Positions 2,556 through 5,088 of a stretch of 64,000 bases of DNA are shown here, one piece after another; position 1 is the first letter of the stretch, and each line of letters begins with the position of its first letter. This stretch comes from a virus, in IMG/VR virus record IMGVR_UViG_3300042566_000180, positions 1 to 64,000 of that record; one strand, written 5' to 3'. A program made the translations under genes and the position numbers. The notes under the pieces are model-generated. The model searched no databases. It was given only the letters and a program-made list of their open reading frames with translations, and was not told the DNA's origin.

Positions 2556-3395
2556 ATGAGCATTTTGAGATTCACCCCACAAGACCACAAATACACAAGT
2601 ATAGATGCAAAGGATACAACAGACTGGTTGTCTGTTACAAGCTTCATTTCTAATTTTAAACAACCATTTGACGCAGATACAATTGCTGAGAAATCTTCTA
2701 AGTCTAAGAAGAGTAAGTGGTATGGTATGACACCAGAAGAAATTAAGCAAGCTTGGTCTAATGAAGCTTTACGTGCAACAACATTAGGAACATGGTATCA
2801 CAATTGTAGAGAAACAGACATCTGTGAGTTTTCTACAATGGAAAGACATGGTAAAACTATTCCCGTAATCACTCCTATAGAAAAGGATGGAATTAAATAT
2901 TCACCTTCTCAAAAACTTACAGACGGTGTATATCCAGAACATTTAGTATATTTAAAGAGTGCAGGTATATGTGGTCAGTCTGATTTAGTAGAAGTGATTA
3001 ATGGAGAAGTTCATATCACAGACTACAAGACTAACAAAGAAATTAAGACAGAAGCATACACTAGTTGGGATGGTAAGGTACAGAAGATGTCAGCACCTAT
3101 ATCACATTTAGATGATTGTAACTTGATGCACTATGCATTACAGTTAAGTATGTATTTGTTTATTATTCTTAAGCATAATCCAAGACTTAAGCCAGGTACA
3201 CTCACTATACATCATATTACGTTTGAGCAAGTTGGGTCAGATAAATTTGGTAATCCTATCACTGCTTTAGACTCAAATGGAGATCCTATTGTAAAAGATA
3301 TTATTCCTTACGATCTTCCATATTTAAAATCAGAAGCTATTGCTTTAATACATTGGTTAGAAGATAACAGAAGCAAATTAAAACCAAAGCATTAA
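2556..3395 (+). CDS. PD-(D/E)XK nuclease, RecB/Cas4-like (279 aa)
   Basis: Nuclease motifs are in the right order: LGTWYH with His82, then ICGQSDLVEV with Asp143, a beta hairpin, and ITDYKTNK with Asp156 and Lys158. This is the His...Asp...Asp-x-Lys metal-binding core of RecB/Cas4-type PD-(D/E)XK enzymes. The helix after it (MHYALQLSMYLFIIL) resembles the usual Q-x-x-x-Y motif (Gln192, Tyr196). A PD-(D/E)XK protein is a conserved gene of crAss-like phages. It probably cuts or resects phage DNA during replication, recombination or packaging. Start at 2556 follows an A-rich spacer; its stop overlaps the next ATG. Confidence 0.85.
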   Translation: MSILRFTPQDHKYTSIDAKDTTDWLSVTSFISNFKQPFDADTIAEKSSKSKKSKWYGMTPEEIKQAWSNEALRATTLGTWYHNCRETDICEFSTMERHGKTIPVITPIEKDGIKYSPSQKLTDGVYPEHLVYLKSAGICGQSDLVEVINGEVHITDYKTNKEIKTEAYTSWDGKVQKMSAPISHLDDCNLMHYALQLSMYLFIILKHNPRLKPGTLTIHHITFEQVGSDKFGNPITALDSNGDPIVKDIIPYDLPYLKSEAIALIHWLEDNRSKLKPKH

Positions 3396-4018
3396 TGGTA
3401 TTAAACCACAATATTGACAATATGAAGTGTCTAGTGAGACTATCACACTTCACTCATAAGCCAGAAGATCATGATAAGTTTCATGAAGCTTACTTATTTG
3501 GTATTCAATCTGTAGCTGGAAAGATTCTTACATTCCATATTATGACTGATTACGGGATGATGAGAAGTAGAGTGCCACTTAGTGAGATATTTTTATCAGA
3601 ACCAACTAAAGATATTCCATTTCATTTTAAACAACTTTGGGACTGTTTTAGTGAGAATGTTTCAGTGATCACATATACGTATTTATATGAAAGAAGATGT
3701 CAAGTGGTTCTAAAGGATGGTTCTAAGGTGTGGGCCACTTATCTATTTACAGTGGATTGGTACAACAATGCATATTCTGATGAACCAAGTGATTACAAAT
3801 GTGGGCATATATTAGTAGCTGATGATGGTTATCTACTGTGCCAACCAAACAATAGAATATTCTGGAAGGACTCTAACTGGGTAACTAAACCTTTTCCAAT
3901 GGATCTAAAAGAAATAAAGGTGGATAGAGTGTTGCCAAGTGTAGAAACAATGTCTGACAGATGGGTGAGTGAAGATAGTGATTCTTACTACTACGATATA
4001 AAAGAACAAAATGATTAG
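3395..4018 (+). CDS. conserved crAss-like protein, function unknown (207 aa)
   Basis: The ATG overlaps the stop of the nuclease gene. A second in-frame ATG at 3422 gives the more natural start MKCLVRLSHFTHKPEDHD. The protein is rich in aromatic residues and beta-prone, with an acidic Tyr-rich tail (SDSYYYDIK). The overall look resembles a family that I associate with the packaging-side operon of crAss-like phages, but I cannot name it. The 3' end overlaps the next gene by 8 bases. No catalytic motif is seen. A virion portal-region or head-assembly role is possible from position only. Confidence 0.75.
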   Translation: MVLNHNIDNMKCLVRLSHFTHKPEDHDKFHEAYLFGIQSVAGKILTFHIMTDYGMMRSRVPLSEIFLSEPTKDIPFHFKQLWDCFSENVSVITYTYLYERRCQVVLKDGSKVWATYLFTVDWYNNAYSDEPSDYKCGHILVADDGYLLCQPNNRIFWKDSNWVTKPFPMDLKEIKVDRVLPSVETMSDRWVSEDSDSYYYDIKEQND

Positions 4019-4523
4019 ATTATTTGATATACAGAACGGACAGGTGGTTCCAAGTGAACATTGTCACACATTGAAGTCATTAAGTGACATCATGTTAGAA
4101 TACCCATTAGATTATATGAAGGTGTATGCATATGTGTTTTATATGACATGTCCTAACCCAGATCTTAATCCATTCTTTGATGTACCAGAAGCAGACAAAG
4201 AAGAACTTATACTTGCAGAGGTAGATGCTGATTTTTCTACAGATGATGAGGTTATAAGCAACGCAATTAAGTTTTGTGAGAAGTTATATCAGACACCAAC
4301 TTATCGTGCCTACATGGGTATGAAAAGCATGGTGGAGAGACTTGGTAAATACATGGAGACCACAGAGATTGAACATGGTAGAGATGGTAACATTACAGCA
4401 CTTATAAATGCTGCTGCTAAGTTTGATCAAATTAGACAATCTTTTAAAGCTACATATAGAGATTTACAAGATGAGCAACAATCACAAGTTAGAGGAGGTC
4501 AGAATCTAGCTTATGATCAATAG
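4011..4523 (+). CDS. conserved protein upstream of TerL, candidate small terminase (170 aa)
   Basis: The N-terminal half contains the distinctive TCPNPDLNPFFDVP and DADFSTDDE segments. The C-terminal half is helical and ends in a Gln-rich VRGGQNLAYDQ tail. It appears to belong to a family retained in crAss-like phages just before the terminase. The position two genes upstream of TerL, the size and the helical content would suit a small terminase subunit, but no helix-turn-helix can be read with confidence, so this is inference. It is followed after 6 bases by the tRNA-like RNA element. Confidence 0.7.
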   Translation: MIRLFDIQNGQVVPSEHCHTLKSLSDIMLEYPLDYMKVYAYVFYMTCPNPDLNPFFDVPEADKEELILAEVDADFSTDDEVISNAIKFCEKLYQTPTYRAYMGMKSMVERLGKYMETTEIEHGRDGNITALINAAAKFDQIRQSFKATYRDLQDEQQSQVRGGQNLAYDQ

Positions 4524-4529
4524 ATAAAT

Positions 4530-4673
4530 TGTAGAGTGACGAAATTGGCAAACGTGCCCTCCTGTCTCGGGGGTGTGGAGCTAACTGATAAAGACAGAAT
4601 AACGGGTTGACCACAAGCTAGCACACTGTTCTGTTCCTAAAGTCCACTTGGTGGTTCGACTCCATCCTCTACA
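4530..4673 (+). ncRNA. tRNA-like RNA of unusual length (144 nt), pseudoknot potential
   Basis: A perfect 7-bp acceptor-like stem joins TGTAGAG (4530-4536) to CTCTACA (4667-4673). A D-arm-like ACG-AAATTGGCAAA-CGT lies at 4539-4555. An anticodon-arm-like hairpin CCCTC/GGGGG (4557-4573) has a 7-base loop CTGTCTC, giving anticodon GTC (Asp) if real, with an unusual U at position 37. The T arm is at 4650-4666 with loop TTCGACT. Between the anticodon arm and the T stem lie 76 bases instead of the usual 4-24. In them TGTGG (4574-4578) can pair with CCACA (4611-4615) and ACAGAA (4594-4599) with TTCTGT (4629-4634), a crossing arrangement. CCA is not encoded. Confidence 0.55.
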
Positions 4674-4684
4674 GCATATTAGGT

Positions 4685-4784
4685 TAACTGGAATGGCGTA
4701 CTTACAAAGCTGTAAAAGGTTGTACGTGATCGGTTAGAAATGCCAGTTGTAAAAGCAGATGTCCACGCACCCATCTTCTGCTTT
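4685..4784 (+). other. structured non-coding segment with nested hairpins
   Basis: TAACTGG (4685-4691) pairs with CCAGTTG (4743-4749). Inside are GCGTAC (4696-4701) with GTACGT (4722-4727) and a nested TTAC/GTAA hairpin (4702-4715). A separate strong hairpin follows: AAAGCAGA (4752-4759) with TCTGCTTT (4777-4784). It resembles no tRNA I can complete, since there is no TTC T-loop. The last hairpin covers an upstream ATG at 4759, which argues that the next gene starts at 4810. The whole 4524-4809 gap has no convincing coding frame. Confidence 0.45.
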
Positions 4785-4809
4785 CCTAAAACATTTAAAC
4801 ATTAAAACT

Positions 4810-5088
4810 ATGTCACAAGAAGTTTACACAGATTATGAAATCAAAGAGTTTGCAGCTGTACCAGATGTAAAACATGAATTCATGCATGATTGGATATTTC
4901 ATTTTAATCCATACACTGAGCTATGGAATGCTATTCCAAGAAACTTATACAATGCTTATTGGAGTAATTATGAAATAAAAGGTATATTACGTAGCAAAGA
5001 AATTAACACACTCTTGTATTTATTGCATAGAGCTAAGGGTGATATTGATGCTGTACATAAATTCACCAATACTGACGAACAGAAATAA
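4810..5088 (+). CDS. small protein before TerL, unknown (92 aa)
   Basis: Begins MSQEVYTDYEIKEFAAVPDV after an A-rich leader (AACATTAAAACT). The frame extends upstream to 4759, but that ATG sits inside a stable hairpin and would add a Ser/His/Leu stretch unlike the rest, so 4810 is preferred. The protein is acidic and rich in Tyr, Trp and Asn, probably helical in the second half (EINTLLYLLHRAKGDIDAV). Its stop codon overlaps the TerL start, so the two are translationally coupled. This suggests a packaging role, possibly as a terminase accessory. Family not recognised. Confidence 0.7.
   Translation: MSQEVYTDYEIKEFAAVPDVKHEFMHDWIFHFNPYTELWNAIPRNLYNAYWSNYEIKGILRSKEINTLLYLLHRAKGDIDAVHKFTNTDEQK

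Follow-up and report, generated by a model that had tools for sequence, protein, structure and literature searches.

The window, a 64,000-nt stretch, belongs to a 92.8 kb virus record that encodes a Crassvirus major capsid protein and a terminase with relatives in crAss-like and Flavobacterium phages; no direct DNA similarity was found between the window and deposited phages. A tRNA-like gene, called here the giant-arm tRNA, sits between a 170-aa ORF (4011-4523) and a small ORF with the terminase (from ~4800). A 207-aa ORF at 3395-4018 matched phrog_3704, which is labelled ferredoxin. Positions 4677-4820 are intergenic and conserved; they contain one hairpin (AACTGG...CCAGTT) and another, terminator-like one ahead of the terminase cassette, and this stretch keeps with the cassette in two relatives (L031 and L018) despite ~700 nt inserted behind the tRNA. 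The parts of the tRNA-like gene are as follows:

4530-4674, + strand: entire tRNA-like gene including the discriminator G73, defined by sequence, homologues and covariation
4530-4536, + strand: 5' strand of the acceptor stem, TGTAGAG; U1, G2 and U3 are invariant in 80 phage-type cores, partly through the scan pattern
4537-4556, + strand: positions 8-26, with T8, G9 and a Leu-type D arm (ACG/CGT stem, AAATTGGCAAA loop)
4557-4573, + strand: anticodon arm CCCTC-CTGTCTC-GGGGG, with G34 U35 C36, U37 and C38
4574-4649, + strand: giant variable arm of 76 nt, from the anticodon stem to the T stem
4575-4578 with 4644-4647, + strand: variable-arm helix P1, GTGG with CCAC
4584-4586 with 4641-4643, + strand: helix P1b, ACT with AGT, paired in 16/16 arms and covarying
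4587-4593 and 4635-4640, + strand: conserved A-rich internal loop, GATAAAG on the 5' side and TCCTAA on the partner side
4594-4601 with 4627-4634, + strand: helix P2, ACAGAATA with TGTTCTGT
4604-4614, + strand: near-invariant apical motif GGGTTGACCAC
4650-4666, + strand: T arm GGTGG-TTCGACT-CCATC
4667-4674, + strand: 3' strand of the acceptor stem, CTCTACA, and the discriminator G73; C74 comes next and CCA is not encoded

As evident from these parts, the ends of the gene resemble a tRNA in the way that the earlier note had described, with a 7-bp acceptor stem, a D arm containing TTGG and a T arm with TTCGACT, and the centre holds exactly the 76 nt that it had counted between the anticodon stem and the T stem. 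The hallmarks T8, the D-loop GG, a T loop of the form TTC(G/A)A and N73 followed by C74 were all present, and the window gene itself carries U33 and U37. ARAGORN called no tRNA in the window. Rfam 15, including the tRNA, tRNA-Sec and tmRNA models, gave no window match at gathering and none in 4400-4850 at E up to 5, and its tRNA model had no match anywhere in the whole record. The suggestion of a new RNA element agrees with these results, and no description of a giant-arm tRNA was found in the open-access literature searched.

Single-sequence folding of the window gene was uninformative (z = -0.1), and the structure was assessed by comparing relatives. In 45 diverse cores, 96.6% of the cloverleaf cells were paired, versus 77.6% after shuffling and 43-60% after sliding; both-sided changes occurred at 18/25 pairs, and two-sided cells numbered 226 against 57 expected. 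The 7-bp acceptor stem and the D, anticodon, variable and T arms were all supported by compensatory changes. With dozens of homologous copies at an identical position and strong compensatory change across related phage loci, the tRNA-like RNA is beyond chance. The variable-arm domain was likewise well paired (96.2% in 16 long arms, with 71 two-sided cells versus 20), and RNAalifold, run on these 16 arms, recovered P1 with 4 bp, P1b with 3 bp and P2 with 8 bp unaided, the same helices having been drawn by hand shortly before the run. Between the helices we found an A-rich internal loop (AUAAA / CUAA) and the apical motif GGGUUGACCAC. The variable region ranged from 15 to 102 nt in relatives.

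The H-type pseudoknot that had been proposed for the arm was not confirmed. Its ACAGAA/TTCTGT pair is conserved and covarying, and is therefore real, whereas TGTGG/CCACA is not conserved, this pairing being possible in 4/42 phage and 0/24 bacterial arms with the motif. The GTGG of the TGTGG strand (4575-4578) pairs with CCAC at the 3' end of the arm (4644-4647) in 42/42 phage and 20/24 bacterial arms. The alternative fold between the anticodon loop and AGACAG fared poorly, with complementarity in only 3/42 phage and 1/24 bacterial arms, and the pseudoknot with the anticodon/AGACAG switch was rejected because of this poor conservation. The notion of an intron-like insert was abandoned, as the extra sequence is a class II variable arm whose length differs among relatives. 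An intron, including a group I intron, was rejected because the insert is placed in the variable arm and not in the anticodon loop, and tmRNA was rejected because the D and anticodon arms are complete and no tmRNA was called. ARAGORN called tRNA-Asp(gtc) in L004, a natural relative whose arm is 26 nt long, which indicates that the body of the giant-arm tRNA is a tRNA body. The conclusion that the giant-arm tRNA is a class II tRNA on a tRNA-Leu-like scaffold, apparently of an undescribed family, is well supported.

We also observed a second hairpin inside the D loop of some relatives (L006, L007, L008, L011-L018, L021, L022, L026 and L040; 11 of 80 distinct cores), which has a UCUCAG-containing loop on a changing stem and resembles an anticodon loop.

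Searching IMG/VR for terminase homologues yielded 80 loci, of which 60 had 1200 nt or more of sequence ahead of terL and were counted. The giant-arm tRNA occurred at the same site in 41/60 of these related crAss-like loci and was missing from 19/60. A pattern scan revealed further phage-type members, some on contigs without a crAss-like terminase hit, and the phage-type elements were collapsed to 80 distinct cores for base counts. U1-A72, G2-C71, U3-A70, G73, C74, U35 and C36 were invariant in 80/80 cores; the scan pattern itself imposed some of the conservation seen in the acceptor stem and D arm. C38 was found in 79/80 cores, G34 in 75/80 with A34 in 5/80, U33 in 70/80 with another base in 10/80, and U37 in 77/80, position 37 being U or C in 79/80. 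All near-terminase elements of the terminase-based set, which was detected without an anticodon constraint, carried GTC. Members with an AUC anticodon (L085, L097, L112, L172 and L179) lie on contigs without a crAss-like terminase hit. In several relatives, the phage copy is located within a tRNA cluster beside ordinary Cys, Met and Leu tRNAs, and canonical tRNA-Asp and tRNA-Asn are likewise encoded in one phage record with a large tRNA set (G018). None of the phage copies was observed to have a neighbouring asnC. A phage-encoded aminoacyl-tRNA synthetase (aaRS) partner in crAss-like genomes was rejected, since PF00152 was absent from the window's record and from 24 other element-bearing records.

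The placement upstream of the terminase genes described in the earlier note is correct for the window and is a setting specific to the phages; the same RNA is also found in Bacteroidota chromosomes beside asnC. A GTDB scan with a stricter pattern gave at least 145 copies in at least 120 loci, and nearly all of the matches listed were from Bacteroidota, with one Ignavibacteriales MAG; the carriers listed include Pedobacter, Sphingobacterium, Fulvivirga, Marivirga, Aquirufa, Flammeovirga, Chitinophagaceae and Cyclobacteriaceae. Two to five copies per locus were present in 15 loci among the at least 120 matches listed. At L295, L316, L224, L245 and L293, three to five near-identical copies stood in tandem on the bacterial chromosome. 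Eight bacterial loci gave no Rfam hit at gathering score, and thirteen gave no ARAGORN call. With a looser pattern, 3/247 genomes of a phylum-wide sample were positive besides the centre, which points either to a narrow distribution of the family or to an overly strict pattern. Among the bacterial elements listed, U33 was found in 100/117 and A34 in 3/117, in a set where the search pattern partly fixes UGUA, U35 and the 3' end of the loop. The canonical tRNA-Asp loop TGTCAC was present in 10/10 element-bearing bacterial genomes examined, and the giant-arm tRNA is thus an extra tRNA; canonical TGTTAA-loop tRNAs coexist with it as well.

Clustering of neighbouring proteins revealed one family, divergent to the tRNA, in 90/120 of the GTDB loci listed, while the second-commonest family was present in 21/120. 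The regulator scored 163 bits as AsnC versus 68 for the next Lrp-type family, and its top PDB match was E. coli AsnC. Of the 106 listed loci that had 700 nt or more of upstream sequence, 87 had a divergent asnC, and the asnC-tRNA gap was below 300 bp in 85 loci and mostly 122-165 bp among the matches listed. A Bacteroidota-type promoter (TTG-N17-20-TAnnTTTG) was found in 75/114 listed upstream regions versus 2 after shuffling. When 248 Bacteroidota were searched with an AsnC-only probe and no RNA pattern, about one in two genomes whose AsnC identity was ~52% or more had the tRNA adjoining asnC. This probe also revealed AsnC-linked variants outside the RNA pattern, with acceptors UGUUGGG and UGUGGGG and loops GUCGC, GUCCC and CUCUC, the last in a single copy with the anticodon CUC. 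By-eye inspection of the ORFs beside asnC in element-free AsnC genomes revealed no asnA. In E. coli, AsnC is encoded divergently to asnA and activates it unless asparagine is present (PMC8707732).

The identity bases were compared with those of known tRNAs. AspRS recognises G73, G34, U35, C36 and C38, and further G10 and G2-C71; bacterial tRNA-Asp has a strict G1-C72, and in tRNA-Asn, U1-A72 is the determinant for the amidotransferase GatCAB (PMC9976931, PMC4206432). We found the set G34 U35 C36 C38 G73 in the window gene and most relatives. The G1-C72 pair, a constant G10 and the short variable loop of tRNA-Asp were lacking; position 10 was G or A, about half each. U1-A72 with G73, as in a GatCAB substrate, was present. 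The anticodon was GUC in the crAss-like set and not the GUU of tRNA-Asn, which appeared only in cyanophage-type relatives, and G73 in 80/80 cores excluded the A73 of tRNA-Leu. The giant-arm tRNA combines the AspRS anticodon set with the GatCAB acceptor mark U1-A72. The combination of U33 and a purine at 37, which marks efficient decoding, did not hold across the phage cores. Among 96 other phage tRNAs called by ARAGORN, U33 was present in 94 and a purine at 37 in 90, and the cyanophage-type tRNA accounted for three of the six without that purine. U33 was kept in 70/80 phage cores, and some decoding is therefore possible. We infer that a GUC tRNA bearing asparagine would misread Asp codons, which would fit the relaxed positions 33 and 37.

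The cyanophage-type tRNA is a class II element with GUU and U37 that was found in the Prochlorococcus phages P-SSM2 and P-SSM7, where it is annotated as tRNA-Asn, and in environmental contigs (L200 688-1586 and L201 696-1586 for P-SSM2 and P-SSM7; L082, L084, L088, L099, L132, L139, L146 and L162). Each copy lies directly behind a class IIb aaRS reduced to its catalytic core (PF00152). The best curated match of this aaRS-like protein was a non-discriminating AspRS, a weak match, and its structure was predicted with low confidence (mean pLDDT 45). The 265-aa protein corresponds to phrog_29758 (function not annotated) and forms a candidate phage aaRS-tRNA pair with the tRNA-Asn. Whether by homology or by convergence, a U1-A72 class II tRNA is here again linked to Asp/Asn chemistry. 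A further class II-looking gene, annotated 'tRNA-OTHER', was observed in Streptococcus phage phiARI0462 (L202 545-628), and lies ahead of the terminase gene of pneumococcal prophages.

GatB was present in 27/27 distinct element-bearing bacterial genomes tested. Both GatB and GlnRS were found in 23/27 element-bearing versus 0/13 element-free genomes (eight with GatB only and five with GlnRS only), a difference (Fisher p about 2e-7) that is not corrected for phylogeny and is confounded by it, as the element-bearing genomes were chosen by the element and the element-free ones came from a phylum-wide sample; the comparison covered GatB and GlnRS. As these 23 genomes have GlnRS, they do not need GatCAB to make Gln-tRNA. 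AsnB scored above the cut-off in 31/37 element-bearing genomes, AsnA was found in 4, and six had neither above the cut-off. The giant-arm tRNA is thus not the only asparagine route in the 31 genomes, and a simple complementarity with the loss of asparagine synthetase was rejected. In these six genomes, the GatCAB route could be the sole source of asparagine.

With a probability of about 0.45, we consider the giant-arm tRNA to be an AspRS-charged, GatCAB-amidated carrier for asparagine supply that is carried by phages too. Host AspRS would charge the tRNA with aspartate, GatCAB would convert the tRNA-bound aspartate to asparagine by way of U1-A72, and the product would be released or handed on and not used efficiently at Asp codons. 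AsnC would turn the tRNA on at asparagine shortage, as E. coli AsnC does with asnA, and the phage's own copy would secure a supply of asparagine (or Asx-tRNA) while the infection proceeds. The frequent A at position 10, the absence of G1-C72, the A34 variants and the one CUC copy speak against this carrier, as do the U33 kept in most phage cores and the AsnB of most element-bearing genomes. We put forward more tentatively that the tRNA may be a dedicated metabolic carrier and not an ordinary decoder, with all four of charging by AspRS through the anticodon, amidation by GatCAB through U1-A72, control by AsnC and capture by phages.

Other explanations of the same observations were weighed. The giant-arm tRNA might be a specialised Asp isoacceptor whose GUC anticodon reads GAY codons during asparagine stress or amino-acid stress, with the giant arm as a decoration. 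The nearly invariant GUC, the frequent U33 in the phage cores and listed bacterial elements, and the clusters of ordinary tRNAs in which several relatives keep the phage copy are consistent with decoding; the pyrimidine at 37 in 79/80 phage cores and the several lineages without U33 are not, canonical tRNA-Asp is already there, and U1-A72 invites amidation to Asn and hence Asn-for-Asp misreading, so we regard the isoacceptor as unlikely. An AsnC-regulated tRNA that donates activated Asp or Asn to a non-ribosomal transfer (to lipid, peptidoglycan, a protein N-terminus or a peptide natural product) would likewise account for the aspartyl/asparaginyl identity with relaxed decoding positions, and a transferase could dock on the class II arm. 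No neighbour comes near the frequency of asnC, however (21 versus 90 of 120 listed loci), and such a donor seems improbable to us.

We see little chance that the RNA is a decoy or replacement tRNA, in which the altered loop and the arm protect against anticodon nucleases or tRNA-targeting defence. It is borne by phages, and some relatives have the D-loop hairpin with its UCUC-containing loop. Colicin E5-like nuclease targets have a GU dinucleotide, which the tRNA shares at 34-35; the AUC variants lack this GU step, and the gene is also found on Bacteroidota chromosomes with a conserved asnC linkage and promoter. A structured RNA for packaging upstream of terL, comparable to a pRNA, is the least credible reading and scarcely worth retaining: crAss-like relatives hold it at a constant site, with the 170-aa ORF on one side and the small ORF/terL on the other, but the RNA is missing from 19/60 related crAss-like loci, other tRNAs share the site, and the presence of the same RNA in bacterial chromosomes without a terminase makes such a role unlikely.

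If the tRNA is a carrier for asparagine supply, it would explain why GatCAB is retained despite GlnRS, and perhaps despite AsnRS and asparagine synthetase; in genomes that have AsnRS and GlnRS as well as asparagine synthetase, GatCAB has been considered possibly vestigial (PMC4206432). Amino-acid biosynthesis would then have a tRNA as a regulated cofactor, encoded beside asnC where E. coli has asnA, and phages that keep a single tRNA-like gene would be seen in a new light. A tRNA family with a structured variable arm in many Bacteroidota and phages that was missed by Rfam and ARAGORN was unexpected.

We compared the giant-arm tRNA with known systems. It shares G34 U35 C36, C38, G73 and G2-C71 with bacterial tRNA-Asp (GUC), but has a class II arm, U1-A72, an unfixed G10, U37 and a Leu-like D arm. 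Bacterial tRNA-Asn (GUU), a GatCAB substrate, has the same U1-A72 and G73, whereas the giant-arm tRNA carries the Asp anticodon and a class II arm and is not the cell's tRNA-Asn. The D-arm type, the large variable arm and the two unpaired nucleotides before the T stem are those of bacterial class II tRNA-Leu, from which it differs in G73 instead of A73, the GUC anticodon and U1-A72. The tRNA-Asn of P-SSM2 and P-SSM7 resembles it in the UGURAGG-type acceptor, U1-A72, G73, a similar D arm and U37, and is distinguished by GUU, a short arm and the adjacent PF00152 aaRS. The likeness to plant-virus tRNA-like structures is one of principle only, namely an aminoacylation identity (here predicted) in a non-standard RNA architecture, whereas the giant-arm tRNA is a free-standing gene with a complete cloverleaf. 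In the asnC-asnA pair of E. coli, an AsnC regulator is likewise divergent to an asparagine-supply gene, which in our case is a candidate; the partner there is asparagine synthetase A (PMC8707732), while in Bacteroidota the partner is a tRNA.
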